Origin: Campylobacterales bacterium
GTDB taxonomy: Bacteria; Campylobacterota; Campylobacteria; Campylobacterales; Nitratiruptoraceae
Direction: 5' to 3'
DNA: 45,810 nt
NCBI GenBank assembly: GCA_027082175.1
Contig: JALWIX010000069.1
Coordinates: 1-45,810, forward strand
Shown: positions 1 through 38,345 of the stretch, one piece after another
How positions within the stretch are numbered: position 1 is the first letter of the stretch
How the letters are laid out: every line of letters begins with the position of its first letter
Made by a program: the position numbers and the translations under genes
The notes under the pieces: model-generated
The model's input: only the letters and a program-made list of their open reading frames with translations
Databases searched by the model: none
Told to the model about the DNA's origin: nothing

Positions 1-440
1 TAGTTAGAGCGCCTATCGTTTACGGATACGGCGTTAAGGCAAATATGAGAAGTCTTGTAACTTTGGTAAAAAGGTTTCCTATACTGCCTTTTGCGGATAT
101 TAACAACAAAAGAAGTATGGTATATGTTGGAAATTTGTCTCATTTGATAGATGAGATTGTAAAACAGGAAAAAAACGGTATTTTTTTGGCGAGCGACGAT
201 GAGGCTATAAGTACTACTAGATTGATTGAGCTTATAGCTCAAAGTTTAGGGCAAAAAGTAAATTTGGTTAAAATTCCGATGTTTTCCTTTTTGTTGAAAA
301 CTTTAAAGAGAGATTATTATAAAAGGCTTTACGGGAATCTAGTAGTAGATAATAAGGAGACTATGAAGAGATTAGGACTCAAAAATCCCTATACGACTCA
401 AGAGGGAATTAAGTTGATGATCTATGGTGAGAAGCCGTAA
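1..440 (+). CDS. NAD-dependent epimerase/dehydratase (SDR), C-terminal part, truncated by left window edge
   Basis: Frame is open upstream of the listed ATG to the edge (VRAPIVYGYGVKANMRSLVTLVKRFP...), so ATG45 is internal; sugar-nucleotide epimerase-like C-terminus. Confidence 0.75.
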   Translation, partial: VRAPIVYGYGVKANMRSLVTLVKRFPILPFADINNKRSMVYVGNLSHLIDEIVKQEKNGIFLASDDEAISTTRLIELIAQSLGQKVNLVKIPMFSFLLKTLKRDYYKRLYGNLVVDNKETMKRLGLKNPYTTQEGIKLMIYGEKP

Positions 441-454
441 AAAATGAGGATCAA

Positions 455-1420
455 ATGATTTTTTATATATCGATTATAGTTTTATCGTTTATTTTAACAT
501 TTCTCGTAAGAGAGTATGCTCTAAGGAAAAAGATCATCGATGTTCCAAACGAAAGAAGCTCTCATAGCGTTCCTACGCCAAGAGGCGGCGGTCTGGCGAT
601 AGTGCTCTCTTTTTATATCGGTCTTGTGATTTTTTATCTTAACGGTAAAATTTCTAATGAGCTTTTTTTTGCTTTAATATGCTCATTACCCATCGTTATA
701 GTTAGTTTAGTTGACGATATCGTAACGGTGAGTTCTAAAGTAAGATTTATCGTTCAGACGGCAAGTGCCGCTTTGGCTCTTTACTTGTTAGGGGGAGTCA
801 ATAAGCTAGATTTCGTTCTGTTTAAAATCGAAGGAGAATGGATCAATCTTTTGATACTTTTGGGTATGGTTTGGCTTATTAACCTTTACAATTTTATAGA
901 CGGTATAGACGCATATGCGGCTACAGAGGCAATTTTTGTTTCTATTGGAGCATATATACTTTTTCACAACGAGATCTTTTTACTTTTAGCTGCGTCGGTT
1001 AGCGGTTTTTTACCCTTTAACTGGCCAAAAGCCAAGATTTTTATGGGTGACGTGGGAAGTGCTTTTTTGGGTTTTGTATTTGCGGTGTTTATAGTCTATT
1101 ATATACATAAGGAAGTCTCCATAATCTATTGGCTTATTTTGCTTGCCCTGTTTTGGTTTGATGCTACTTTAACTCTTGCAAGAAGGATAAAAAACAAAGA
1201 GCCTTTTACAAAACCTCATAGAAAACATGCCTACCAAAGAGCCGTACAAGCAGGGTTTACGCATAAGCAGACCGTTATTGTCGCAATGATTATTAATTTA
1301 GTCGCTTTTTCTATTTTATACGTTTTAAAAGAGACAAAAGAGATTTTTTACTTCTTTTTAATATATATTGTCGCTTTATACTTTTTGACAAAGTTTATAG
1401 ATACAAAAAAGGCCTTTTGA
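455..1420 (+). CDS. MraY/WecA/WbpL-family polyprenyl-phosphate glycosyl-1-phosphate transferase
   Basis: Multi-TM protein with DVPNERSSHSVPTPRGGG, DD and NLYNFIDGIDAYA...FMGDVGSAFLGF motifs. Confidence 0.88.
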   Translation: MIFYISIIVLSFILTFLVREYALRKKIIDVPNERSSHSVPTPRGGGLAIVLSFYIGLVIFYLNGKISNELFFALICSLPIVIVSLVDDIVTVSSKVRFIVQTASAALALYLLGGVNKLDFVLFKIEGEWINLLILLGMVWLINLYNFIDGIDAYAATEAIFVSIGAYILFHNEIFLLLAASVSGFLPFNWPKAKIFMGDVGSAFLGFVFAVFIVYYIHKEVSIIYWLILLALFWFDATLTLARRIKNKEPFTKPHRKHAYQRAVQAGFTHKQTVIVAMIINLVAFSILYVLKETKEIFYFFLIYIVALYFLTKFIDTKKAF

Positions 1421-3210
1421 TGAATATTTTTAAACCAACAGTCGCAAATAGGGCGATATTTTTTTTGATATTTGATCTTTTGATCTCTCTTTTCACACTA
1501 TATTTGTCATATCTTTTAAGATTTAATTTTCACATACCAGCTGATCATCTACACAATTTTCCAAAAGTATTCGTTGTATTGGTCTCTTTAAAGATTTTAT
1601 TTTTCTTTGCTTTTAAGATCTACTTTTTTGCTTGGAGATTTTTTTCTTTAAACGAAGCTAAAAAACTACTTTTTGCTCATATTGCGGCTTATTTTGGTTT
1701 TACGATTCTATTTTTATTTTTCAAAGAGTTTTTTATACCTATGCCAAGAAGCGTTATTTTAATAGACTTTTTCTTATCTATATTTTTTATAGGCGGTTTT
1801 CGTTTTTTAAAAAGACTATTTTTAGAGTTTTCAAAAAAAGGTGAAGTTAAACCGACTATGATTATAGGGGCTACTCCAAAGGCGGTTTCTCTTATAAGAC
1901 ATTTTGTAACGGAAAAAGCTGGTTATTGGCCTGTTGCTATAGTTGATGATAATAGTTCGATGATAAATACTTATCTTGCAAATATAAAAGTATATGATTT
2001 GCGAAATTTGGAAAGAGTTATAGAGAAATTAAATATAAGTTCCGTTATCATCGCAAAAGATTATGATACGAAAAAGTTAGATAAAATTTTTGAAAGGCTT
2101 AAAGAGTTAGGTATAGAAGACATTAAATTGGCAAAGCTTTTGGGAGATAGAGTCGAAGAGTTAAAAGATATATCCATAGAGGATCTTTTAGCTAGAAAAC
2201 CAAAAGATTTAGATATAAAAGTCATCAAAGATTTTATAGAAAATAAAACTGTTTTGATAACAGGTGCAGGCGGTAGTATAGGAAGCGAGATAGCAAGACA
2301 GTGTAGTAGATTTGGAGCAAAAAAACTTATTCTTTTAGACAATAGCGAATATAATCTATACACTATCACCGAAGAGCTCTCCACCTACGATATAGTCCCT
2401 CTGATGCAAACGGTTGTAGATAGAGAAGCTATCAACAAAACTATAAAAAAATATAGACCGGATATCATAGTTCATGCGGCAGCGTATAAACACGTTCCTC
2501 TGGTTGAATTTAATCCTAAAGAGGCAGTAATAAACAATATACTAGGAACGAAAAATGTAATTGACGCTTCTATTAAGTACGGAGTAAAGAAATTTGTACT
2601 TATTTCGACAGACAAAGCTGTTAGACCTACGAACGTAATGGGTGCGACAAAAAGAGTTTGTGAACTATACGCACAAAACGTGGATGCTAAAGAGACCGAG
2701 ATTGTCGCTGTTAGATTTGGCAACGTACTAGGAAGTAGCGGAAGTGTCATACCTAAGTTCAAAGAGCAGATAAAAAAAGGCGGACCATTGACAGTAACAC
2801 ATCCTGAGGTTACAAGATACTTTATGCTTATTCCGGAAGCTTGCAAACTGGTTCTTCAAGCAGCTGCAATCGCTAAGGGTGGAGAGATTTTCATACTAGA
2901 TATGGGAGAGCCTGTGAAGATTGTGGATTTAGCTAAAAAAATGCTAAAGCTTTATGGAAAAGAGAAAGAGATAGAGATAGTATTTACCGGTCTTAGACCC
3001 GGAGAAAAACTTTTTGAAGAACTTTTGCTAGACGAGACGGAGCAAAAAACAAAGTATGAATCTATCTATGTGACAAGACCGACCATTTACGATATTGATG
3101 TGCTTGAAAAAAATATAGAAGAGCTTTTAAAAACCGATGAAAACAGTATAGTTGCAAAGTTACAAGAGATAGTTAAAGAGTTTCAGCCCAAACAATATAA
3201 AAAAAGTTGA
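1417..3210 (+). CDS. pglF: PglF/WbpM/CapD-type membrane nucleotide-sugar 4,6-dehydratase
   Basis: N-terminal TM segments followed by TGAGGSIGSEIARQ Rossmann motif and STDKAVRPTNVMGATKR; overlaps upstream gene by 4 nt. Confidence 0.85.
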   Translation: MMNIFKPTVANRAIFFLIFDLLISLFTLYLSYLLRFNFHIPADHLHNFPKVFVVLVSLKILFFFAFKIYFFAWRFFSLNEAKKLLFAHIAAYFGFTILFLFFKEFFIPMPRSVILIDFFLSIFFIGGFRFLKRLFLEFSKKGEVKPTMIIGATPKAVSLIRHFVTEKAGYWPVAIVDDNSSMINTYLANIKVYDLRNLERVIEKLNISSVIIAKDYDTKKLDKIFERLKELGIEDIKLAKLLGDRVEELKDISIEDLLARKPKDLDIKVIKDFIENKTVLITGAGGSIGSEIARQCSRFGAKKLILLDNSEYNLYTITEELSTYDIVPLMQTVVDREAINKTIKKYRPDIIVHAAAYKHVPLVEFNPKEAVINNILGTKNVIDASIKYGVKKFVLISTDKAVRPTNVMGATKRVCELYAQNVDAKETEIVAVRFGNVLGSSGSVIPKFKEQIKKGGPLTVTHPEVTRYFMLIPEACKLVLQAAAIAKGGEIFILDMGEPVKIVDLAKKMLKLYGKEKEIEIVFTGLRPGEKLFEELLLDETEQKTKYESIYVTRPTIYDIDVLEKNIEELLKTDENSIVAKLQEIVKEFQPKQYKKS

Positions 3211-3291
3211 TAAAAAATAGTTTTTTGTTTTTAAAGTATATTGATAAACAAAAATGCTAATATTATAAAAATTGACTTTAAAGGTGAATAA

Positions 3292-5490
3292 GTGATTGGT
3301 AACAAGGAAGAGAATATACAAAAAAAAGAGATTATCGTTTTTATAGTTTTAGCTTTTGTTTTTTCTATAGCCGTTCGTCTTTATTGGTACTATTGGGCAT
3401 CGGGAATAGACGGGTTTTACTGGAACGGTCAGGTTATGATAAACACAAATGACGGCTACTATTTTGCTAGCGGCGCTCAAAAAGAGCTTTTCGGGATGCA
3501 TCAGTTTAATCCGTTAGTCCCAGGCTTTTGGGATAGGGGACTTGTATTTATAACCACTATCTTAGCTAAAGTTTTACCCTTTTCTCTAGATTCTATAATC
3601 CTTTTTATGTCAGCGATTTTTTCAAGTTTTATCGTAGTTCCTCTAGTTTTATTGGGACGGCTTTACGGTATAAGCTGGGTTGGTTTTTTTGCGGCTATTT
3701 TAGCTTCTGTAGTTTGGAGTTATTACAACAGGACAATGATAGGCTACTACGATACGGATATGTTTAGCGTATCGATTTTGATGTTTATTTTTTACTTTTT
3801 AGTCGCGTCTATAAAGAGAAAAAACTATCAAGATATCTTTTGGGCGGCTGTAATAGGAGCTATATATCCTTTCTTTTATGTTCCCGGACAGAACGTTTTA
3901 TATGGTCTTATCATAGCATATACTATCTATTTAGCGATTTTTCATAGAAAAGATTCATTTTTTTATCCTTCACTGATTTTACTTTATGTTTCGCTTTTTC
4001 CTCTATTTTTTATTTTTAAACTCATATTGGTAATATCGACATTTATAGCATTGAAAAAAGAGTTTATACCAAAACAATATGAAAAATATTTAGCTTTTGG
4101 AGTTATTGCTATTTTTTTCCTTTGGAGCGATGCGCTTTTAAGGATTTGGCAAAAGATTGACGCATATTTTTTCAAACATGGAACGGAAAACCAGGGTTTA
4201 CACTTTTTTAAGGTTATGCAAACCGTCAGAGAAGCCTCCTCGATACCATTTGAGACTCTCGCAAACAGGATAAGCGGTCATGTAGCCACTTTTTTGCTTG
4301 CAATGGTTGGATATATCGTACTTTTGTTTAAAGAGAGAAGTTTTTGGATAAGCTTGGTTTTGGTAGGACTTGGACTTTTTGCTATAACGGGGGGACTTAG
4401 ATTTACCATTTACGCCGTACCATTTATGGCTTTTTCTTTGGTATATCTTTTTTGGTTTATGTTCTATAAAATAGAAAAAAAAGTCTTAAAATATACACTT
4501 GTTGGAGTTTTAACTATTTTTGCTCTAATACCCAATATCATCCACGTTATAGAGTATAAAGTTCCTACCGTTTTTACTAAAAAAGAGGTTGCAGACCTTA
4601 ATAGACTTAAAAATGTGGGCTCGTCTAAAGATTTTGTGCTAACCTGGTGGGATTACGGCTATCCTATATGGTACTATGCGGATAAATGTACGTTAATAGA
4701 CGGCGGAAAACACAACCACGACAATTTTATCGTCTCAAAGATTCTATCAACCAGTTCACAACTGCAAGCCGCTAGGCTAGCTAGGATCTCCGTTGAGACT
4801 TACGTTAAACAAGTAGAGTGGTATAAAAGATATAAAGAAGAAGGGCTTGATTTATCTGAAATTCCAGAAGAGTTTATATTTCGAAAAAAAGGGAAGAAAT
4901 CTTTTATAGCAAATCCGGGTTTTCCGGTGGCAGATGTGATTTTTCAAAATGGTAAAAAGAGCCAAATTGATCCAAACGACTTTTTAGAAGAGCTAAAATA
5001 TGGCGATGTAAAACTTCCAAAAAAGACGAGAGAGATATATGTGTATCTGCCTCTTAGGATGATGGAAATTTTTCCGACCGTAAAACTTTTTAGCAGTATA
5101 GATTTAAAAACCGGTAAAAAGAGCTCCTCTTTTATCTTTTATAGTGAAAGGTTTAAAGATACAAAAGATCTTCTCATATTTGAAAGAGGAGTGGCGCTTG
5201 ATAAAAAAAGTGGAGTTTTGCTTATCGGTAAACAGAAGGTCCCTATAAAAGAATTTTTTACGGTAGGGTATACAAAAGGTGGGAAAGTCGTTAAGCAAAA
5301 ACAGAGTCTACGCAAAAACGCTCCTTTAAGCGTGATCTTTTTGTCAAGTTATCAATCTTTTTTGATAGTCGATGATGAGATGTTAAACTCCTTATATATA
5401 CAGATGTTTGTTTTTGACAACTATGATAAAGAGCTATTTGAACCCGTTGTTATATCTCCTTGGAGCAAGATATATCGGGTTAAGATATAA
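3292..5490 (+). CDS. pglB: STT3-family oligosaccharyltransferase (PglB-like), GTG start
   Basis: 13-TM-like N-terminus plus WWDYGYPIWYYADKCTLIDGGKHNHDN (WWDYG motif); length 732 aa. Confidence 0.9.
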   Translation: MIGNKEENIQKKEIIVFIVLAFVFSIAVRLYWYYWASGIDGFYWNGQVMINTNDGYYFASGAQKELFGMHQFNPLVPGFWDRGLVFITTILAKVLPFSLDSIILFMSAIFSSFIVVPLVLLGRLYGISWVGFFAAILASVVWSYYNRTMIGYYDTDMFSVSILMFIFYFLVASIKRKNYQDIFWAAVIGAIYPFFYVPGQNVLYGLIIAYTIYLAIFHRKDSFFYPSLILLYVSLFPLFFIFKLILVISTFIALKKEFIPKQYEKYLAFGVIAIFFLWSDALLRIWQKIDAYFFKHGTENQGLHFFKVMQTVREASSIPFETLANRISGHVATFLLAMVGYIVLLFKERSFWISLVLVGLGLFAITGGLRFTIYAVPFMAFSLVYLFWFMFYKIEKKVLKYTLVGVLTIFALIPNIIHVIEYKVPTVFTKKEVADLNRLKNVGSSKDFVLTWWDYGYPIWYYADKCTLIDGGKHNHDNFIVSKILSTSSQLQAARLARISVETYVKQVEWYKRYKEEGLDLSEIPEEFIFRKKGKKSFIANPGFPVADVIFQNGKKSQIDPNDFLEELKYGDVKLPKKTREIYVYLPLRMMEIFPTVKLFSSIDLKTGKKSSSFIFYSERFKDTKDLLIFERGVALDKKSGVLLIGKQKVPIKEFFTVGYTKGGKVVKQKQSLRKNAPLSVIFLSSYQSFLIVDDEMLNSLYIQMFVFDNYDKELFEPVVISPWSKIYRVKI

Positions 5491-5502
5491 CCTCCTTGCT
5501 AT

Positions 5503-5536
5503 TTTTTAGTTTTTGAACTAGTTCAAAAACTAAAAA
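5503..5536. terminator. 34-bp perfect palindrome between convergent genes, likely bidirectional terminator
   Basis: TTTTTAGTTTTTGAACTAGTTCAAAAACTAAAAA lies between the ends of pglB (+) and the 129-aa gene (-). Confidence 0.7.
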
Positions 5537-5574
5537 GATAAAAAGTTGCTTATTTATAAGATAGTAGTTGTTTA

Positions 5575-5964
5575 TTAAAAGAGTGCAAGATAAAACAATG
5601 CGATATAAATGACTGTATTTAAGTATATCATACTAGAAGATATTTTAAAATCTTGAGGGATACCTAAAATCTCATCTATATCTTTGCCTTTTATTTTAGA
5701 TTGAATAAGCCATAGTTTAAAGGCTATATCGGAAGTTTTTAAAAGCAAGATACTAATCATCCATATATTTGATATTCCATATTTTATAGCTACATATAAA
5801 ACAAACCAGTAGCTAGGGTGAGATAAGAAAAAGTAGATTTGGCCATTTTCATACTTTTTAAAAATATTGTCGATTATACCTTTAAAACTGTCCGCTTTTT
5901 GCCAAGATGCCTCGTATAGCTCAAAAATTATTAAAATGATTAGATATAAAGCTTTATCTTCCAT
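5575..5964 (-). CDS. Small hydrophobic membrane protein of unknown function
   Basis: 129-aa ORF with several hydrophobic stretches; convergent with pglB. Confidence 0.6.
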   Translation of the reverse strand: MEDKALYLIILIIFELYEASWQKADSFKGIIDNIFKKYENGQIYFFLSHPSYWFVLYVAIKYGISNIWMISILLLKTSDIAFKLWLIQSKIKGKDIDEILGIPQDFKISSSMIYLNTVIYIALFYLALF

Positions 5965-6046
5965 AGCTCCTACTAATATAAAAACTTTTCGCTATTTTAA
6001 TCAAAAATGAATAAAATATGGTTGAATATTAACTAAAGAGGTAGAG

Positions 6047-6541
6047 TTGGAGATAGCGATTATCAATACCGGAGGAACCTTCAATAAAAGATACGATCCC
6101 ATAAAGGGAGAGCTGATAGTTCCTAGAGATAACTTGGCGATAGAGAATATTTTAAAAAGTTATCATACAAACTTAGATTATGTACTAAAAGGGATGATAT
6201 TTAAAGATAGTCTTGAAATGGACGATAAAGATAGAGAGAGTTTGCTAAACGAGATAAAAAATGCTCAAACTAAAAAGGTTTTAGTAGTTCACGGAACGGA
6301 TACTATGCGAAAGAGTGCAGCTTTCATAGCAAAAAATATTGAAGAAAAGTGTGTCGTATTTACCGGCGCTATGGAGCCTTTTTCTATAAATCCCGCGGAG
6401 GCTACGGCAAATTTTACTTTGGCTTTAGCAAAACTTCTTTTGAACTTTGAGGAGGGCGTTTTTATAGCTATGCACTCTTTGGTTCTTCCTTATAGTAAAA
6501 TTATCAAAGATAGAGAGAGGGGAATTTTTTGTCGAAAATAA
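6047..6541 (+). CDS. Short asparaginase-family protein, TTG start
   Basis: IAIINTGGTFNKRYDP and VVHGTDTMRKSAAFIA asparaginase-type motifs; overlaps ccoI. Confidence 0.75.
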   Translation: MEIAIINTGGTFNKRYDPIKGELIVPRDNLAIENILKSYHTNLDYVLKGMIFKDSLEMDDKDRESLLNEIKNAQTKKVLVVHGTDTMRKSAAFIAKNIEEKCVVFTGAMEPFSINPAEATANFTLALAKLLLNFEEGVFIAMHSLVLPYSKIIKDRERGIFCRK

Positions 6542-9045
6542 GCTGCGATCACTGCAATCTCGAATTTGACGAAAAGGTTATGATAGAAGATGAGATTGAC
6601 GGAGAAAAGAAGTATTTTTGTTGTAAAGGGTGTCAGGGAGTTTATCATCTTTTAAAAGAGGAGGGTCTTGATAGTTTTTACGATAAACTAGGGAGCACAA
6701 AGCTTCAGCCTGCTGTTAAGAAAGAGGATGATCTAAAAAAGTTTGATCTAGAGGGTTTTATCAAAAAATATGTAAAAGTGAGAGATGATGGGCTTTATGA
6801 AATAAATCTCATTATAGAGGGGATTCACTGTGCAGCTTGCGTGTGGCTCAATGAAAAGGTTCTTCACCAAACTCCCGGAGTCATAGAGGCTACTATCAAC
6901 TATACCAACAATAAAGCAAAAATCGTTTGGGACCCAGAAGAGATAAAACTCTCTAAGATTATAGAAACGATCCGCTCTATAGGGTATAACGCTTATCCTT
7001 ACGACCCAAAACTTCAAGAAGAGAGAGCCGTAAAACAAAGGAGAGAATACTACGCTCGCATATTAGTAGCGGTTTTTGCGACTATGAATATCATGTGGAT
7101 AGCTATAGCTCAGTATGTGGGACTTTTTACCGGAATGAGACGAGATATTAAAGATATTTTAAATTTTGCCGAATTCGTGTTGGCTACTCCTACTCTTTTT
7201 TATAGCGGATGGGTATATTACAGAAGCGCCTATTACGGCTTGAAGCATCGCTTTGTCAATATGGATCTGCTCGTAGCAACGGGAGCTACGCTAGCTTATA
7301 TCTACTCCGTTTACGCTATGATAACACGAACCGGAGAAGTGTATTTTGATTCTGTAACTATGATAGTTACATTTATTTTGGTTGGAAAATATCTTGAAGT
7401 TTTAAGTAAAAAACAGGCTGTTGATACTCTAGACTCTATCTTGGGTACCATTCCTACCGAAGTTACGGTTGTAAAGGAGAATGAAAAAGCTCTAGTGATG
7501 GTGGAAAATGTGGAGCCCGGAGACATCATAGAGATAAAGCCTGGTGAAAAAGTTGTTATTGACGGTGTTATCATAAACGGAAGCGCTTCCTTTGACGAAA
7601 GCTCTTTAACGGGAGAGAGCGAGCCCGTATTTAAAAAAGAGGGAGATGAGGTATTAAGCGGCTCTATCTGTATAGACGGGGTAGTTAGGTATAGAGCGAA
7701 AAAAGATTTTTCTGCCTCGCTTCTATCAAATATCGTCTCGCTACTTGAAGATTCTATAACTAAAAAGCCTAAAATAGAGAGACTTGTAAATCAGATTTCG
7801 GGATATTTTAGCGTTACGATTCTTTCTATCGCTTTTTTAACTTTTATAGGGTGGTATTTTTATGCGGGAGAGTTTGAAAAGGCTTTGATAGTGGCTATTT
7901 CGGTAGTTGTTATAGCTTGTCCTTGCGCTTTGGGGCTTGCTACTCCGATGGCTACTTTGGTAGGCATAGGTATAGCCGCTAAGAGAGGACTTCTTTTTAA
8001 AGAGGCAGCGTTTTTGGAAACTATGGCAAAAAGCGATATGCTTGTTTTGGATAAAACTGGAACGATAACGGAAGGAAAGCCGAGTGTAATTACCTATGAA
8101 AAGTTAAAAGATTTTGATGAGAGTATAGTTTTGGAGCTTGTAAAAAACTCAAACCATCCTATTAGTAAGGGGGTTGAGAGGTTTATAGTAGAGAAGATGG
8201 TAAGGGGAGAAGGTGATAAGGGGGTAAGGTGGCAAGGTGATAAGGGGGTAAGGTGGCAAGGGGTGAAGGAGGGAAGGAGTGAAGATGAATATTTTCGTAC
8301 TCACACCCACACCCACACTTCAATATTGAAGGTTGAAAAGTTTAAAGAGATAAAAGCAAAAGGGATGATTGCTAAAATTGGTGGCAAAAGAGTTTTGGGA
8401 GGAAATATTGAGCTTTTAAAAGAGTTTGGGATAGATGTAGAAATAGAGAGTGAAAATAGTATATTTTTGGTTGCGATAGAAAACGAGCTTGTAGCGGTTT
8501 TTGAACTTAGCGATAAGATAAAAGAGGGAGCCGCCGAAGCAATCTCTAAGATTAAAGAGTTGGGTATAAGAGTTGTAATGTTAACCGGTGATAATGAAAA
8601 AGTAGCCAAAAAAGTGGCCGATACGCTTGGGATAGAAGAGTTTTACGCAAAACTTTTGCCGCAAGATAAAAGTGCCTACATAGATAAGTTTCATAAAGAT
8701 GGGCATATCATCGTAATGGCCGGAGACGGGATAAACGACTCTATAGCCCTTGCTCGAAGCGATATAGCCATAGCGATGGGAAGTGGGGCGGATGTGGCCA
8801 TAAGCGTTAGCGATATAGTTTTACTTGATGAAAAACCAAAGAGTATATATGAAGCTTATAAGATAAGTAGAAGAACCTTTAAAGCGGTCAAAGAGAATCT
8901 AGCTCTCTCTTTGATATATAACACTTTTGCGGTTCCGGTAGCGGTGATGGGGTTTGTCAATCCTTTAGTAGCCGCTATTTCTATGTCTTTAAGTTCGTTA
9001 TTGGTTGTTGGAAATTCGTTTAGAATTAAGTTGAGTGATAAGTGA
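6529..9045 (+). CDS. ccoI: Copper-translocating P1B-type ATPase (CcoI-like)
   Basis: IHCAACVWL metal-binding motif, CPCALGLATP, DKTGTITEGKPS, HPISKGV, GDGINDSIALA; followed by ccoS. Contains a low-complexity insertion at about aa 557-603. Confidence 0.92.
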   Translation: MSKISCDHCNLEFDEKVMIEDEIDGEKKYFCCKGCQGVYHLLKEEGLDSFYDKLGSTKLQPAVKKEDDLKKFDLEGFIKKYVKVRDDGLYEINLIIEGIHCAACVWLNEKVLHQTPGVIEATINYTNNKAKIVWDPEEIKLSKIIETIRSIGYNAYPYDPKLQEERAVKQRREYYARILVAVFATMNIMWIAIAQYVGLFTGMRRDIKDILNFAEFVLATPTLFYSGWVYYRSAYYGLKHRFVNMDLLVATGATLAYIYSVYAMITRTGEVYFDSVTMIVTFILVGKYLEVLSKKQAVDTLDSILGTIPTEVTVVKENEKALVMVENVEPGDIIEIKPGEKVVIDGVIINGSASFDESSLTGESEPVFKKEGDEVLSGSICIDGVVRYRAKKDFSASLLSNIVSLLEDSITKKPKIERLVNQISGYFSVTILSIAFLTFIGWYFYAGEFEKALIVAISVVVIACPCALGLATPMATLVGIGIAAKRGLLFKEAAFLETMAKSDMLVLDKTGTITEGKPSVITYEKLKDFDESIVLELVKNSNHPISKGVERFIVEKMVRGEGDKGVRWQGDKGVRWQGVKEGRSEDEYFRTHTHTHTSILKVEKFKEIKAKGMIAKIGGKRVLGGNIELLKEFGIDVEIESENSIFLVAIENELVAVFELSDKIKEGAAEAISKIKELGIRVVMLTGDNEKVAKKVADTLGIEEFYAKLLPQDKSAYIDKFHKDGHIIVMAGDGINDSIALARSDIAIAMGSGADVAISVSDIVLLDEKPKSIYEAYKISRRTFKAVKENLALSLIYNTFAVPVAVMGFVNPLVAAISMSLSSLLVVGNSFRIKLSDK
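8199..8339. repeat. In-frame array inside ccoI: octamers GGnGnnAA (perfect 24-bp unit x2 at 8212-8235/8236-8259), then CACACC hexamers (8299-8320) and GGTTGAA
   Basis: Read directly: ggtgataa gggggtaa ggtggcaa twice, then ggggtgaa ggagggaa ggagtgaa ... actcacacccacacccacactt. Confidence 0.9.
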
Positions 9046-9086
9046 GGAGTGCGGAATTATTGGTGTATTAGTGTATTGGTGTATTT
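9030..9086. repeat. Array at the ccoI 3' end: gagtgataagtgaggagtg, then TGGTGTAT octamers x3
   Basis: tggtgtat tagtgtat tggtgtat at 9061-9084; ccoI stop codon lies in the first part. Confidence 0.75.
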
Positions 9087-9126
9087 GAATCAAACTTTAT
9101 GAATAATAAATATAAAAAGGAAAAAA

Positions 9127-9360
9127 ATGAGTGCCGGTATAATAGCTATGATGTTAGGTATTTCGACGCTTCTTGGCGCTTTAGGATTGGCGGCTTTGTT
9201 GTGGGGACTAAGAACGGGACAGTTTGACGATACTTCAAAGTTTTTGGATGGCGCTAGATTTGATGGAGAAGAAGAACTAAAAGATGCCGTTATGATGGAG
9301 GAAAAGAGAAAAAAAGCTTTAGAAAAGAGAAGAAAAGATAAAAGGGTAATGCCGGATTGA
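9127..9360 (+). CDS. ccoS: CcoS-like cbb3 oxidase maturation protein
   Basis: Single N-terminal TM, LLWGLRTGQFDD, acidic/basic tail; follows ccoI. Confidence 0.8.
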   Translation: MSAGIIAMMLGISTLLGALGLAALLWGLRTGQFDDTSKFLDGARFDGEEELKDAVMMEEKRKKALEKRRKDKRVMPD

Positions 9361-9361
9361 T

Positions 9362-9385
9362 TATGAGTGATGAGTAATCAGTGAC
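9362..9385. repeat. Left array flanking four-helix-bundle remnant 1
   Basis: tatgagtgatgagtaatcagtgac, immediately after ccoS stop. Confidence 0.7.
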
Positions 9386-9402
9386 GACAAATAAAAAAAT
9401 AA

Positions 9403-9633
9403 GTTATTTCAATACCTAGCAACATAGCAGAAGGAGCTGCAAGACAATCAAACAAAGAGTTTATTCAGTTTTTATATATAGCTTTAGGTTCGTTATCTGA
9501 ATTAGAAACTCAATTAATAATTGCCAATAATTTAAATTTTATAAATATTGATAATTCAATTTTAGAATTGATAGAAAAAATTAGAAAAATGATAATTGGA
9601 TTGATTAAATATAATAAAAACAAAATTCATTAA
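9403..9633 (+). pseudogene. N-terminally truncated four-helix-bundle (S23/Avd-like) gene remnant
   Basis: Reads VISIPSNIAEGAARQSNKEFIQFLYIALGSLSELETQLIIANNLNFIN...NKIH*; matches the C-terminal two-thirds of the intact copy at 11882; in-frame stop directly upstream. Confidence 0.85.
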
Positions 9634-10858: not shown

Positions 10859-11863
10859 ATGAGATATTGCGATATAGACTTTAATAATAAAACCGTTTTA
10901 ATAACGGGAGGAGCCGGTTTTATAGGGAGCAATCTGGCTTTCTATTTTCAAGAAAATTTTCCCGAGTGCAAAGTGGTTGTTTTTGACAAATTTAGAACCG
11001 AAGAGAAGTTTTCAAACGGTAATTTGACTAGTTTTGGCCATTTTAAAAACCTTATAGGTTTTAAAGGTGAAATTATAAGCGGAGATATCACAAATAAAGA
11101 AGATATTGAGAGATTAAACGATTTTAAGTTTGACTATATTTTCCATCAAGCCGCTATTAGCGATACTACGGTTCAAGATCAAAAGATAATGGTAGATACT
11201 AACGTGAATGCTTTTAAAGACCTTTTAGATATGGCGGTTATGATGAAAGCGGGGATGATCTACGCTTCTAGCGGAGCCGTTTACGGAAAACTACCTGCTC
11301 CTCATAGAGTGGGCAAAGAGGCTCCCGCAAATATATACGGATTTAGCAAACTTATGATGGATAATTTAGCTTATGAATATATGAAAAAAAGTGACATTCC
11401 TATCGTAGGGCTTAGATATTTTAATGTTTACGGTCCTAGAGAATACTACAAAAACAAAACCGCGTCTATGGTACTTCAGTTTGGTTTGCAGATACTGAGC
11501 GGACAAAATCCTAGACTTTTTGTAGGAAGTGACAAGATAAAAAGGGACTTTGTGTATGTGGAAGATATTATACAAGCCAACATTAAAGCCTGTAATCCGA
11601 AAAAAAGCGGAGTTTATAACGCCGCTACCGGGATTGCTAGAAGTTTTCAAGATATAGTCGATATTTTACAAAAAGAGTTAAACACTGAACTTCCTTGTGA
11701 ATGTATTCCAAACCCTTACGAAAAACAGTATCAGTTTTTTACTCAGGCCGATATCGAACCAACCAAAAAGTTTTTAGATTATGAACCTAGATTTTCTTTA
11801 GAAGAGGGTATAAAAGCAGATATACCTTATATTAAAAAGATTTATGATGAGGAAGTAAGGTAG
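10859..11863 (+). CDS. hldD: ADP-L-glycero-D-manno-heptose 6-epimerase
   Basis: TGGAGFIGSNLA, heptose context, FNVYGPREYYKN. Confidence 0.92.
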   Translation: MRYCDIDFNNKTVLITGGAGFIGSNLAFYFQENFPECKVVVFDKFRTEEKFSNGNLTSFGHFKNLIGFKGEIISGDITNKEDIERLNDFKFDYIFHQAAISDTTVQDQKIMVDTNVNAFKDLLDMAVMMKAGMIYASSGAVYGKLPAPHRVGKEAPANIYGFSKLMMDNLAYEYMKKSDIPIVGLRYFNVYGPREYYKNKTASMVLQFGLQILSGQNPRLFVGSDKIKRDFVYVEDIIQANIKACNPKKSGVYNAATGIARSFQDIVDILQKELNTELPCECIPNPYEKQYQFFTQADIEPTKKFLDYEPRFSLEEGIKADIPYIKKIYDEEVR

Positions 11864-11877
11864 AAGGTAGAAGGGAA
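11855..11877. repeat. Left array flanking intact four-helix-bundle gene; overlaps the hldD stop
   Basis: gtaaggtagaaggtagaagggaa; GGTAGAA-type heptamers. Confidence 0.65.
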
Positions 11878-11881
11878 TAAA

Positions 11882-12241
11882 GTGAGAAATAATCAATATA
11901 GAGATTTAATTGTTTGGCAAAAAGCAATGAAACTAGTTGAATTAGTTTATGAGAAATTGCTATATTTTCCGAAAGAAGAAATATATGGTTTGGCATCTCA
12001 GATAAAAAGATCAGTGATATCTATTCCAAGTAACATTGCAGAAGGTAAAGGAAGAAAAACAGATAAAGAATTTATACAGTTTTTACATATTGCTTTAGGC
12101 TCTTTATATGAACTTCAAACTCAAATTGAACTTGCCAAAAGATTAAATATGATAGAAAATATTGATGAAATAGAAAATAGAAGTTTAGAAATAGAAAAAA
12201 TGTTAAATGCATTGATAAATTCTAAAAAGGAATATAAATGA
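11882..12241 (+). CDS. Intact four-helix-bundle protein (S23 / Avd-like family)
   Basis: YRDLIVWQKAMKLVELVYEK...YGLASQIKRSVISIPSNIAEGKGRKTDKEFIQFLHIALGSLYELQTQIELA, the family signature. Confidence 0.9.
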   Translation: MRNNQYRDLIVWQKAMKLVELVYEKLLYFPKEEIYGLASQIKRSVISIPSNIAEGKGRKTDKEFIQFLHIALGSLYELQTQIELAKRLNMIENIDEIENRSLEIEKMLNALINSKKEYK

Positions 12242-13677
12242 TATCTTCATCCTTCAACCTTCATCCTTCAACCTATATTCCTAAAATCCTAGTAGTAGGT
12301 GATCTTATGATAGATCACTACCTTTGGGGAGAGTGTGAGAGGATATCTCCCGAAGCTCCTGTACAGGTGGTCGATGTCAAAGAGGAGAGCTTTGTTCTTG
12401 GCGGAGCCGGGAACGTTTTAAACAATCTAAAAGCTTTTGGAGCCGAAGTAAGCGTAGTTAGTGTTGTTGGAGATGACGAAAACGGAGAATGGCTAGAGAA
12501 AAGATTAGAAAAAAGAGGTATAAAAAAGCTGGCTCTAATAAAAGAGAAGGGAAGAAAAACTAGTAAAAAAAGTAGAGTTATAGCTTCTCATCAACAGATA
12601 GTGAGGTTTGATAAAGAGAGTAAAGATGATATCTCTAAAAGAAGTGAAGATGAAATTTTGAAAGTTTTAAAGAAAAATGTCTCGGATTTTGATCTAATTT
12701 TGCTTTCTGATTACGGGAAAGGGGTTTTAACTGCTTCGTTGACTCAGAAGATCGTTTCTTTAGCAAAAGGAAAGATTCCGGTCTTTGTGGATCCAAAAGG
12801 AAAAGATTATAGCAAATACAAAGGAGCCGATCTAATAACTCCTAACAAAAAAGAGGCGTCAATCGCTACCGGTATCGAAATAAAAGATGAAAAGAGTTTA
12901 AAAGAGGCAGGATTTTATTTGAAAAATGCGTATGATTTAAAAAATGTGATAATAACTTTGTCAGAAGAAGGCCTGGCTATATTTGAAGATAAGATGGTAA
13001 AGATACCTACCGTAGCTAAAGAGGTTTATGACGTTACGGGAGCCGGCGATACGGTATTGGCCGCTTTGGGTTTTGCGGTTGCAAGCGGAAAGAGCTTAAG
13101 AGAGGCTGCGCGGTTTGCCAATCTTGCGGCCGGGGTAGTTGTGGGAAAAGTTGGTTGTGCTACGGCTACTTTAGAAGAGATAGAAGAGTATGAAAGCTCT
13201 TTGCATAAAAGTAGTTCCGAGGAGCATATAAAAAGCTTTGAAGAGATCAAAAAAGTCGTTGAATATCTAAAAAACAAAAATAAAAAGATTGTTTTTACCA
13301 ACGGCTGTTTCGATATCCTACATATAGGACATGTGAAATATCTTGAAAAAGCTAAAAAACTTGGCGATGTTTTGATAGTAGGCCTTAACGCCGATGAAAG
13401 CGTTAGAAGATTAAAAGGTGATGATAGACCCGTAAATAGCGAGTATGACAGAGCTTATTTGCTTGCCGCTTTGGAAGCTGTTGATTATGTGGTGATTTTC
13501 AAAGAGGATACTCCTTATGAGCTTATAAAAGTAATCCAACCGGATATTTTGGTAAAAGGAGCCGATTATAAAGATAAAGAGATAGTAGGCAGCGATATAG
13601 CAAAAGAGGTAAAACTTATAGAGTTTATTGAAGGTAAGAGTACGAGTAAGATTATTGAGAAAGTGAGGAGGGGATAG
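12238..13677 (+). CDS. hldE: Bifunctional heptose 7-phosphate kinase / heptose 1-phosphate adenylyltransferase
   Basis: PfkB-type kinase (DVTGAGDTV) fused to FTNGCFDILHIGHVKYLEKAK nucleotidyltransferase. Confidence 0.93.
   Translation: MISSSFNLHPSTYIPKILVVGDLMIDHYLWGECERISPEAPVQVVDVKEESFVLGGAGNVLNNLKAFGAEVSVVSVVGDDENGEWLEKRLEKRGIKKLALIKEKGRKTSKKSRVIASHQQIVRFDKESKDDISKRSEDEILKVLKKNVSDFDLILLSDYGKGVLTASLTQKIVSLAKGKIPVFVDPKGKDYSKYKGADLITPNKKEASIATGIEIKDEKSLKEAGFYLKNAYDLKNVIITLSEEGLAIFEDKMVKIPTVAKEVYDVTGAGDTVLAALGFAVASGKSLREAARFANLAAGVVVGKVGCATATLEEIEEYESSLHKSSSEEHIKSFEEIKKVVEYLKNKNKKIVFTNGCFDILHIGHVKYLEKAKKLGDVLIVGLNADESVRRLKGDDRPVNSEYDRAYLLAALEAVDYVVIFKEDTPYELIKVIQPDILVKGADYKDKEIVGSDIAKEVKLIEFIEGKSTSKIIEKVRRG
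12245..12274. repeat. Right array flanking intact 4HB gene; forms codons 3-13 of hldE
   Basis: Reverse complement is (GGTTGAAGGATGAA)x2; encodes SSFNLHPSTY. Confidence 0.9.
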
Positions 13678-13716: not shown

Positions 13717-13743
13717 AAAAAAAAACTAATTTTAATTGAGGCC

Positions 13744-13913
13744 TCTGAAAAATTACAAATTGAACGAAGGATTTGAAATTTTAGCTTGAAAATTTTATGT
13801 TCGCCAAAAGGCAAAAAAGTGCGCTTGTTTAGCACTTTTTAATAAAATTTACAAGCGCGTTAGTTTTACTAAAAATTTCAACTCTCCTGAGTGAAATTTT
13901 GTAATTTTTCAGA
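13744..13913. repeat. 170-bp inverted-repeat element with perfect 16-bp ends and alternative internal hairpins
   Basis: TCTGAAAAATTACAAA (13744-13759) and its reverse complement (13898-13913); internal AAAAAGTGC/GCACTTTTT and GCGCTTGT/ACAAGCGC. Confidence 0.75.
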
Positions 13914-13952
13914 ACATTCAGTTCATTTTTTAAAAAGTTAAAAAGGAAAAAA

Positions 13953-15261: not shown

Positions 15262-16254
15262 CTCGTTTGCAGCTTTTATAACCATATTTGGAGTTAAATC
15301 TTTCATGCATTTATGATGCTTTAGCGGACAGACTCTTTTCATACATGGCGAACAGTCCAAGTTTAGAGCGACTATTTTACTTTTTGGGTTTTTCCACTGT
15401 GAAGTGGAAGTATAATCGGTAGGACCAAAAATTGCAACAGTTGGTATCTTAAAAGCCGCCGCTATGTGCATAGGTCCGCTATCGTTTGTTATAAAAAGAT
15501 TCAGTTTTGAGATTGCCGCCATCAACTCTTCTATAGTAGTTTTTCCGGCTAAATTTATATAGTTTTTAACACCCAATATTTTGAGTTCTTTTTCTATATC
15601 TTTTGCTATCTCTTTTTCGTTTGGGCCTCCAAAAATTACTATATTAAATCTATCCGAGAAGGTAGCCGCTACTTTTGCAAACTTTTGGGGATACCATCTT
15701 TTTGCACTTCCGTATGTTGCGCCTGGATTTATACCTAATAGAGGAGAAGGCGGTAAGGTGATAAGGTGGTAAGGATTAAGATAGAGTTTTAAGTCGCCGG
15801 GCGGTATATCTGTTTTAAAAACGGAGTTTATGAAGTAGTTGTACTTTTCTACTTGATGCAAAGAGGTTGAAGGGTGAATTTTGAAGGTTGAAGGAGAATA
15901 AAAAAATCTTTTTTTTGAGCCTGTTAAAAATAGTAGCAGTTTAGAAAAAAAGTGGCTTCTAAAAGATACTGCGATATCATGAGAGCCGATTTTTTTAGCT
16001 AGTTTGTATGTTGAAAAGAGGCGATTTTTACTCTTTTTGGTTTCGTCGATGAAAACTTTATTTATTTTTGGATGGTGTTTTAACGCTTCGGCAGATACGT
16101 AACTTCCTACTATAGTTATCTCTTTTGGATTTAGAGTTTGTATGAGATTTTCGATAGCCGGAGTTGCCATTACCGTATCACCAAGCCAGGTTGGAATTTC
16201 AATAAGTAAGGTTGAAGGATGAAGGTTTAAGGTTGAAGGGTTAAATGAGTTCAT
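15253..16254 (-). CDS. waaF: ADP-heptose:LPS heptosyltransferase II (GT9)
   Basis: IPTWLGDTVMATPAIENL, GINPGATYGSAKRWYP, TNDSGPMHIAAAF; carries three low-complexity array insertions. Confidence 0.9.
   Translation of the reverse strand: MNSFNPSTLNLHPSTLLIEIPTWLGDTVMATPAIENLIQTLNPKEITIVGSYVSAEALKHHPKINKVFIDETKKSKNRLFSTYKLAKKIGSHDIAVSFRSHFFSKLLLFLTGSKKRFFYSPSTFKIHPSTSLHQVEKYNYFINSVFKTDIPPGDLKLYLNPYHLITLPPSPLLGINPGATYGSAKRWYPQKFAKVAATFSDRFNIVIFGGPNEKEIAKDIEKELKILGVKNYINLAGKTTIEELMAAISKLNLFITNDSGPMHIAAAFKIPTVAIFGPTDYTSTSQWKNPKSKIVALNLDCSPCMKRVCPLKHHKCMKDLTPNMVIKAANELI
15749..15780. repeat. In-frame octamer array inside waaF
   Basis: ggcggtaa ggtgataa ggtggtaa ggattaag; encodes LNPYHLITLPPSP on the minus strand. 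Confidence 0.85.
15865..15899. repeat. In-frame heptamer array inside waaF
   Basis: ggttgaa gggtgaa ttttgaa ggttgaa ggagaat; encodes FYSPSTFKIHPSTS. Confidence 0.88.
16210..16244. repeat. Five-heptamer array forming the waaF N-terminus
   Basis: ggttgaa ggatgaa ggtttaa ggttgaa gggttaa; encodes FNPSTLNLHPST after the start Met. Confidence 0.92.
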
Positions 16255-31964: not shown

Positions 31965-31978
31965 TTGAAAATCCTTTT
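31951..31978 (-). promoter_or_regulatory. Perfect inverted repeat enclosing SD and start codon of the epimerase gene
   Basis: AAAAGGATTTTC-ATTT-GAAAATCCTTTT; start codon complement CAT at 31962-31964. Confidence 0.6.
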
Positions 31979-32022
31979 AGTTAATGGTTGATGGTTTATG
32001 GTTGATAGTTGTTTGTTGATAA
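31979..32022. repeat. Array flanking four-helix-bundle remnant 3 (left side)
   Basis: agttaatggttgatggtttatggttgatagttgtttgttgat. Confidence 0.8.
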
Positions 32023-32037
32023 TTATAATAGAGTTTT

Positions 32038-32392
32038 TCATTTTGTTTTTCCTTTCAAAGAACTTATAAGACTGTTTAACATTTTTCTTAATTTTGTTAT
32101 TTCGAGAATATAATTTTCAATATTATTAATATAGCCAATTTTTTTTGCAATTATAATTTGAGTTTCTAATTCAAGCAGAACCTAAAGCTATATATAAAAA
32201 TTGTATAAACTCTTTTTTAGTATTTCGAGATGCACCTTCTGCTATATTGCTTGGTATTGAAATTGTTGATCTTCTAATTTGATCTGATAATACATATATT
32301 TCACTATTTGGAAAACTTTTAATAAGCTGATATATTTTTTCCACTAAGGATATGGAGTTTTGCCAAACCTTCAAATCTTTGTAATCATTCAA
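32038..32392 (-). pseudogene. Frameshifted four-helix-bundle (S23/Avd-like) gene
   Basis: MNDYKDLKVWQNSISLVEKIYQLIKSFPNSEIYVLSDQIRRSTISIPSNIAEGASRNTKKEFIQFLYIALGSA*, then ELETQIIIAKKIGYINNIENYILEITKLRKMLNSLISSLKGKTK* in another frame. Confidence 0.85.
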
Positions 32393-32408
32393 CTATTATC
32401 CTTTCAAA

Positions 32409-32444
32409 ACTATCTACCATCAACTATCCACTATCCACTATCCA
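32409..32444. repeat. Array on the other side of remnant 3, opposite orientation; supplies the ugd stop codon
   Basis: Minus strand: ggtggatagtggatagtggatagttgatggtagatag. Confidence 0.85.
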
Positions 32445-33838
32445 CCGGTAACACCTACTTGGTAATACTCAAATCCCATCTCTTTGAGTTTATCTTTATT
32501 GTATTGATTTCTTCCGTCAAAGATTATAGGGTTTTTGAGTCTCTTTTTCATCTCGAAAAAGTCCGGACTTCTGAACTCTTTCCATTCAGTTACTAGTATC
32601 ATAGCGTCCGAGTCGTTTAGAGTGTCGTATTTGTTGTCGAAATACTCGATATTTTCAACACCTTTAAGCCAAAAGTTTTTTGCCTCATCCATAGCTTTTG
32701 GATCGTAAGCTTTGATTTTAGCGCCTCTTTTGGCAAGCTCTTTTATTATGGTTATGGAGGGCGCTTCTCGCATATCATCCGTTTCCGGTTTAAAGCTTAG
32801 TCCCCATATAGCAAAAGATAAGCCTTTTAATGGCTTATCTTTTGAGTTGATAGTCGATAGTTGATAGTTGATAGAAAAGCGGTTTAAGATTTTGTTTAGA
32901 AAATAGATTCTTTGCTCTTTGTTTACCTCTTCGACAGCTTTTACTATTTTTGGCTCAACTCCCGCGTCCAGCGCTATCTTTTCAAGAGCCTTCACATCTT
33001 TTGGAAAACAGCTGCCGCCATATCCGACTCCAGGATATATAAAGGCATAACCTATACGACTATCGCTACCGATCCCCACTCTTACTTTATTAATATCGGC
33101 TCCTACCGCTTCTGCAATACGCGCCATTTCGTTCATAAAAGATATTTTTGTCGCAAGCATCGCGTTTGCGGCGTATTTGGTAAGTTCGGCGCTTCTAACG
33201 TCCATACCTATAAATCTTTCATGGCTTCTTGTAAAAGGAGCGTATAGCTCTTTTAAAACTTCCATCGATTTTGGATTATCGGCGCCTATGACTACTCTAT
33301 CCGGTTTCATAAAATCATTTACCGCGTCACCCTCTTTCAAAAATTCGGGATTGCTCACTACGTCAAATTTCAAAAGTTCTTTATATGTCTTTTCATTTAT
33401 TTCATTATTTTTTAATCTTTTTTCAAGCTCTTTTTTTATAGTTTCTCTAACTTTGTCAGCTGTGCCTACGGGAACAGTAGATTTATCCACTACTATCAAA
33501 GGATGGCTCATATATTTTCCTATATCTTTTGCTACGGCCAAGACATACTGTAAATCCGCGCTTCCGTCTTCACCTTGTGGAGTTCCTACGGCGATAAACA
33601 CTATATCAGAGTTTTTTAGGGCATATTTTATATCTGTTGTAAACTCCAAAGTGCCGATTTTGAAGTTATTTTTGACTATCTCTTCAAGTCCGGGCTCATA
33701 TATGGGTATGACTCCCTTTTTTAGGTTTTCGATCTTTTTTTCATCAATATCTACGCATATTACGTTATTTCCCATCTGCGCAAAACAAGCGCCGGTAACT
33801 AGTCCTACATAACCTGTGCCAATAATGCTTATCTTCAT
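32438..33838 (-). CDS. ugd: UDP-glucose 6-dehydrogenase
   Basis: [58 protein letters not shown]. Confidence 0.93.
32812..32873. repeat. Perfect 13-bp inverted repeat (32812-32824/32832-32844) abutting a GTTGATA heptamer array (32846-32873), inside ugd
   Basis: CAAAAGATAAGCC ttttaat GGCTTATCTTTTG a gttgata gtcgata gttgata gttgata. Confidence 0.92.
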
Positions 33839-38237: not shown

Positions 38238-38345
38238 GGTGAATAGTGTGGGTGTTAGTGTGGGTGTGGGTGTGGGTGTGAGTGTGAGTGTGAGAGGATT
38301 ATCTCTTACCACTTACCCCTTATTACTAATTACGCTTTACGATTC
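38237..38345. repeat. Array pair abutting the hisH stop: GTGTGG hexamers, then an opposite CTTACC/CTTATT-type array
   Basis: agtgtgggtgttagtgtgggtgtgggtgtgggtgtgagtgtgagtgtgag ... cttaccacttaccccttattactaattacgc. Confidence 0.85.

Follow-up and report, generated by a model that had tools for sequence, protein, structure and literature searches.

How does a stretch of some forty repeat-built codons come to lie inside the nucleotide-binding domain of a copper-transporting ATPase, and what has kept it there? The question is raised by ccoI in the stretch of DNA analysed here (the window: 45,810 nucleotides, positions 1 to 45,810 of contig JALWIX010000069.1, assembly GCA_027082175.1). The host is probably a member of the genus Nitrosophilus near N. 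labii HRV44. Over long aligned blocks the window is ~90-97% identical in DNA to N. labii (G003), and the two CcoI proteins are 97% identical; CcoI of the congener G002 is 82% identical to that of the window. The gene is the following:

6529..9045, forward strand: ccoI, copper P1B-type ATPase of cbb3 oxidase maturation (Pfam and NCBIfam).

The frame is uninterrupted, encodes 838 amino acids, contains GEGDKGVRWQGDKGVRWQGVKEGRSEDEYFRTHTHTHTSILKVEK, and retains intact CPC, DKTGT and GDGIND catalytic motifs. ATPase-cat_bd, HMA, E1-E2 ATPase and HAD domains are recognised above the curated Pfam cut-offs, and the NCBIfam call is copper subfamily P-type ATPase. The neighbourhood is that of CcoI/FixI, ccoS (FixS/CcoS by Pfam and NCBIfam) following at 9127-9360. 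N. labii, which also carries an insert, makes the CcoO protein and respires O2 up to 1% (PMC11539149), and this fits, indirectly, with a working CcoI. Just before ccoI, at 6047-6541, there is a short ORF of 164 amino acids that matches only the N-terminal part of asparaginase.

The insert comprises ~40 codons (~8200-8318) of octamer and hexamer repeats, placed between the HP-motif helix and the following strand of the N-domain, and is the part missing from relatives. It consists of three segments:

8200..8285, forward strand: left, G-rich octamer array, including two perfect 24-bp units (missing from ~80 other CcoI genes).
8286..8295, forward strand: AT-rich middle, the ATGAATATTTTCGTA region, with AAGGAG before it (from the sequence; almost identical in N. 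labii).
8296..8318, forward strand: right, C-rich CACACC hexamer array, encoding THTHTHT (from the sequence and the N. labii alignment).

The first-pass annotation had described two perfect 24-bp repeats, further octamers and a CACACC array that leave the frame unbroken, and both the sequence and Tandem Repeats Finder confirm this, the latter reporting 2.6 copies of a 24-bp period at 8199-8261 and a period of 8 across 8194-8277. The two perfect copies each encode GDKGVRWQ. The true unit of the left array is the octamer, the 24 bp being composed of AAGGTGAT AAGGGGGT AAGGTGGC. The head-to-tail units and open frame are those of a coding VNTR. The block had been placed at 8199-8339; what relatives lack runs from ~8200 to ~8318, and ILKVEK is already part of the conserved strand region. 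In base composition the two arrays are opposites: the left has 44 G and 2 C in 84 bp, and the stretch overlaps the 84-bp segment where the excess of G over C is strongest in the whole window; the right has 13 C and 1 G. The block thus follows a G-left/C-right polarity. An example of a tryptic peptide spanning the loop is SEDEYFCTHTHTHTHTSILK.

Alignment of CcoI orthologues, which had been proposed as a check, shows the insert to be restricted to this lineage and not conserved across distant CcoI proteins. Only the window species, N. labii and, with other units, G002 have it; it was not found in the two other members of the genus, G001/L007 and G004/L006, or in N. alvini, Nitratiruptor or ~80 other Campylobacterota CcoI proteins. 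The insert of N. labii is VVRWQGVKEGRSEDEYFCTHTHTHTHTSILK. Relative to the window, its octamer part is 48 bp shorter (two 24-bp units) and its hexamer part 6 bp longer in the DNA alignment, neither difference breaking the frame, so unit number varies between close relatives as in a coding VNTR, and the suspicion that the insert might be length-variable is supported. The HT tract is common to both species, with mostly synonymous changes between them. At the same point G002 has a different block, whose left part consists of the heptamers GGTTGAA GGATGAA GGTAGAA GGGAGAA and whose right part has the units CACGAAT/TACGAAT. In Helicobacter sp. 16-1353 (L067) this loop holds an independent, unrelated insert of repeats rich in serine, glutamate and lysine, and another insert precedes it within the domain. 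Since the window species and N. labii, G002 and Helicobacter carry different inserts, the site is a repeatedly used, variable loop. It is possible that the different units of G002 represent independent insertions rather than one evolving block, and the repeated hits on this loop could reflect selection for something.

An AlphaFold2 model of CcoI, built with 40 sequences, has pLDDT values below 50 only at residues 54-62 and 560-596, the second segment lying between a helix at 544-558 and a strand at 602-608. Structure comparison matches the model to solved copper ATPases, with ATP7B among the relatives found. The alignment with LpCopA (3rfu) stops at its residue 476 and restarts at 480 around the insert, so that approximately four residues in LpCopA correspond to approximately forty in the window CcoI. 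Lineage restriction, the length difference from N. labii and predicted disorder together agree with the proposal of the first-pass annotation that this is a tolerated surface-loop insertion.

The DNA of the insert also carries a mark of its reading frame. The third octamer of both 24-bp copies reads GGCAAG, in frame TGG CAA, and does so likewise in N. labii, whereas the base at that position is T in each of the genome's six other near matches; in the ccoI frame a T there would give TGG TAA. The T-to-C base therefore avoids the in-frame TAA of the other genomic octamers. Slippage by a single octamer would shift the frame, and the observed difference of 2 x 24 bp is therefore as predicted for slippage filtered by frame. 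The noncoding array before the IVP gene described below differs from its N. labii counterpart by one 7-bp unit.

We consider it likely that the CcoI insert is a lineage-specific, in-frame block of short-period repeats in a dispensable N-domain loop, expanded by slippage and filtered by frame. According to this model, a Nitrosophilus-type array block, with G-rich left, AT-rich middle and C-rich right parts, would have landed between the HP-motif helix and the next strand. The numbers of octamer and hexamer units would then have changed by slippage or unequal exchange, and only changes by three octamers (24 bp) or by multiples of 6 bp would have survived, because ccoI must stay in frame. In-frame stops would have been lost by mutation, and the outcome would be a disordered loop that leaves catalysis undisturbed. 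Slippage as the mechanism, neutrality, and a common origin with the other array blocks are what we infer. The insert is a clear small case of short repeats adding a disordered loop to an enzyme, with selection for frame visible in the DNA.

The other arrays of the window put this block in context. Six arrays were detected in the window by a periodicity scan, against none in ten shuffles of it; second-order Markov shuffles of the sampled genomes, scanned later with different settings, yielded none either. Per 100 kb of sampled sequence, the window genome, N. labii, G002 and N. alvini have 11-24 arrays of 6-8 bp, compared with 5 in G024 and 0-2.5 in G006, G007, G008, SB155-2 and G037. The samples were of 40-315 kb per genome, except that G001 and G004 were represented by 9-11 kb only, which held no arrays and does not really fix their density. 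Where two arrays lie less than 150 bp apart, 32 pairs are G-left/C-right and none C-left/G-right, although the 32 include orthologous pairs in two species and so amount to fewer independent events. At spacings of 150-700 bp neither polarity is favoured (8:6), and we therefore restrict the polarity claim to close pairs and to the arms of IVP genes. The arrays of the window other than those at IVP genes are:

9056..9088, no strand assigned: octamer array TATTGGTG between ccoI and ccoS (periodicity scan).
15746..15775, reverse strand: octamer array inside waaF (heptosyltransferase II), encoding LNPYHLITLPPS (array scan, protein comparison).
15850..15894, reverse strand: heptamer array inside waaF, encoding SPSTFKIHPSTS (array scan, protein comparison).
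16207..16244, reverse strand: heptamer array forming the WaaF N-terminus, NPSTLNLHPST (array scan, protein comparison).
32839..32879, reverse strand: heptamer array inside the UDP-glucose dehydrogenase gene, udg (protein comparison).
38244..38335, no strand assigned: array after hisH, GTGTGG hexamers on the left and CTTACC/CTTA repeats on the right (sequence, DNA search).

Array-coded protein stretches are found also in WaaF, UDP-glucose dehydrogenase and HldE of the same window. The WaaF N-terminus of N. alvini differs from the others by 21 bp (3 x 7), or seven residues, and of four genomes compared, only those of the window species and N. labii have the 13-residue in-frame heptamer-coded insert in udg. 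The array after hisH, read as its reverse complement, has the order of the CcoI insert, GGGTAAG-type repeats followed by CACACC. An inverted match of ~20 nt between this array and the CACACC part had been noted, and it holds on the opposite strand, exactly over 17 nt and over 20 nt by eye. The match does not speak for a specific kinship of the two arrays: the genome has 35 CACACC-type matches with at most two mismatches, many of them in a separate palindromic family. The dispersed repeat at 13734-13919, to which three more copies in the vicinity of the syntenic region of N. labii are 86-97% identical, appears to belong to a palindromic family with CTCTGAAAAATT ends, in which many copies have GTGTGG/CACACC arms.

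Short arrays also flank the genes of IVP (S23) proteins, a family whose role is unknown (PMC4990558). Such loci in the window are:

9385..9597, forward strand: broken IVP (PF05635) gene lying between degenerate arrays (profile search, sequence).
11846..11875, forward strand: left, G-rich heptamer arm (GTAGAAG) of the intact IVP element, giving the upstream gene its stop.
11882..12241, forward strand: intact IVP/four-helix-bundle gene (PF05635, TIGR02436; profile searches).
12243..12275, forward strand: right, C-rich heptamer arm, which codes for the N-terminus of hldE (MISSSFNLHPSTYIPK).
31977..32020, no strand assigned: heptamer arm of a broken IVP element (right in IVP orientation).
32171..32380, reverse strand: broken IVP gene with one in-frame TGA (profile search).
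32407..32448, no strand assigned: heptamer arm of the broken IVP element (left in IVP orientation), 21 bp longer than in N. labii.

PF05635 matches number six each in the window genome and N. labii; G002 has five, N. alvini has a single one, and G001 and G004 have none. When the flanks of 23 IVP genes above the family cut-off were inspected, short arrays lay on both sides, with a locus-specific unit common to both and inverted; three weak matches below the cut-off had no inverted arrays. The inverted-arm score was at or above the 99th percentile of random controls in 17 of 26 loci, the three weak ones included. By summed skew, the best arms were G-left in 28 of 29 loci (20 from Campylobacterota, 9 on plasmids) and C-left in none. 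Commonly the upstream gene ends inside the left array. The stop codon of the IVP gene often abuts or overlaps the ATG that follows, and the next protein often takes its N-terminus from the right array, as in HldE. On plasmids of cyanobacteria, an alphaproteobacterium and a gemmatimonad, the arms were inverted at 9 of 12 IVP loci, with direct arrays at two and a one-sided array at one.

Several further observations concern these loci. At the same intergenic sites (hldD-hldE, udg-epimerase and emrA-emrB, identified from the similarity of the gene products), both the IVP and the unit differ from species to species (L136-L165, L243-L254). On cyanobacterial plasmids (L245, L247, L250), IVP genes lie within CRISPR-cas clusters, in the orders cas6-IVP-cas4 and cas10-IVP-cmr3, with short arrays flanking them. 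Synteny with N. labii breaks at 9385-9597, the sequence at 1-9385 and that from 9574 onwards being in opposite orientation and ~36 kb apart, which suggests a rearrangement ending at the IVP locus. At G023:C37:19640-20909 a reverse transcriptase gene adjoins a weak IVP/Avd-like match without inverted arrays; this is probably a true diversity-generating retroelement, in contrast to the solo IVP genes. A retroelement origin was rejected for the window genome (G000) and G002, in which a search found no reverse transcriptase (PF00078).

We tentatively raise the possibility that solo IVP/S23 genes lie at the heart of an insertion element that is widespread but undescribed and has polar inverted arrays as its borders, and that blocks without an IVP gene, including that in CcoI, derive from the same machinery, although we hold this to be rather less than an even chance. 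In such an element the G-rich left arm would carry stops and end the upstream gene, the IVP stop would overlap or abut the next start, and the C-rich right arm, being open, would become the new N-terminus of the downstream gene. A stop-rich left arm with an open right arm could therefore allow the element to settle in operons without breaking them. A general association of IVP/four-helix-bundle genes with flanking repeats was not found in the open-access literature, where the Coxiella 23S IVS is a single-locus precedent. That these flanks are so regular in several phyla would open a way to test what the S23/IVP protein does, and the arrays would also bear on the origin of the puzzling heptamer repeats in cyanobacteria and other bacteria.

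It would follow the same pattern if the CcoI insert were itself the remnant of an IVP element that had lost its protein gene, leaving a stop-rich left array, an SD and ATG, and an open right array, later fused in frame; we regard this as unlikely. The block does have the G-left/C-right order of IVP elements, AAGGAG-TGAAG-ATG stands right before the right array like the start codon at the ends of IVP genes, and the three insert-bearing members of the genus have 5-6 IVP genes, whereas G001 and G004 have neither insert nor IVP genes. However, a profile search found no PF05635 gene between the arrays inside ccoI, the block holds no trace of IVP coding sequence, and the IVP insertions observed here are intergenic, never inside a gene. 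The arms of IVP elements share one inverted unit, whereas in CcoI an octamer on the left faces a hexamer on the right and the polarity alone is shared. Because it lacks an IVP gene and its arms differ in unit, the insert is not filed as an IVP element. The difference in units also counts against the preferred explanation, a slippage-expanded block of common origin with the other arrays.

That the loop is functional, its His-Thr repeats binding copper, for example, or its charged repeats binding CcoS or a chaperone, we consider improbable. The loop has been hit recurrently, as G002 and Helicobacter sp. 16-1353 show, and the mostly synonymous divergence of the HT tract between the window species and N. 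labii would accord with a function. The insert of G002, however, has no HT tract, which is thus not conserved even within the genus; N. alvini and the compared Nitratiruptor genomes lack the loop altogether, the repeat number varies between near relatives, and the loop is predicted to be disordered.

Rickettsia palindromic elements insert in frame in coding genes, at tolerated surface locations, and the first-pass annotation had drawn this analogy. The CcoI insert resembles them in being in frame within a coding gene and in its probable surface loop, and the genome does contain the dispersed palindromic family with GTGTGG arms. Nevertheless, the Rickettsia elements are a mobile, multicopy, conserved palindrome, and a whole-genome DNA search with the insert returned only partial low-complexity matches of 21-51 bp; nor does the insert have the ends of the palindromic family. 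As no multicopy conserved core was found, assignment to such a family is unsupported, and we think it very improbable. An assembly or sequencing artefact, or a decaying gene, has next to no probability: the window genome is a draft of 115 contigs, but N. labii carries the same kind of insert, and the ccoI frame and its catalytic motifs are intact.

Among copper ATPases, ATP7B has a long flexible insertion in its nucleotide-binding domain. The likeness to CcoI, a disordered loop in the N-domain, is at the level of the domain; the ATP7B loop is eukaryotic and not built of repeats. At the level of DNA, the closest systems are TAACTGA and other heptameric direct repeats of Beggiatoaceae and cyanobacteria (MacGregor 2015; PMC4679880), which likewise form abundant 7-bp direct arrays, mostly intergenic and sometimes within ORFs. 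As here, one orientation of TAACTGA stops all three frames and ends genes, and the other is translatable as a repeat peptide (PMC4679880). However, one heptamer dominates in those genomes, whereas here the units vary by locus and include octamers and hexamers, the close arrays of Nitrosophilus form polar G-left/C-right pairs, and the CcoI block lies in the middle of a conserved enzyme. The heptamer and octamer elements of Geobacter metallireducens (PMC2700814) also form 7-8 bp arrays within and between genes, some paired on opposite strands; they are multicopy families with conserved sequence, in contrast to the arrays here, for which no conserved family core was found. The 23S rRNA IVS of Coxiella burnetii has an S23 ORF, terminal inverted repeats and a variable number of heptamers just upstream of the ORF (PMC4990558), the same components as the IVP elements described here. 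The Coxiella IVS resides in 23S rRNA and is excised, whereas the elements here lie between protein genes, their arms terminating one gene and often beginning the one that follows, and the CcoI insert has no IVP gene. Beside these systems, the CcoI insert is one of a lineage-specific set of 6-8-bp arrays that are densely spread in the genome.
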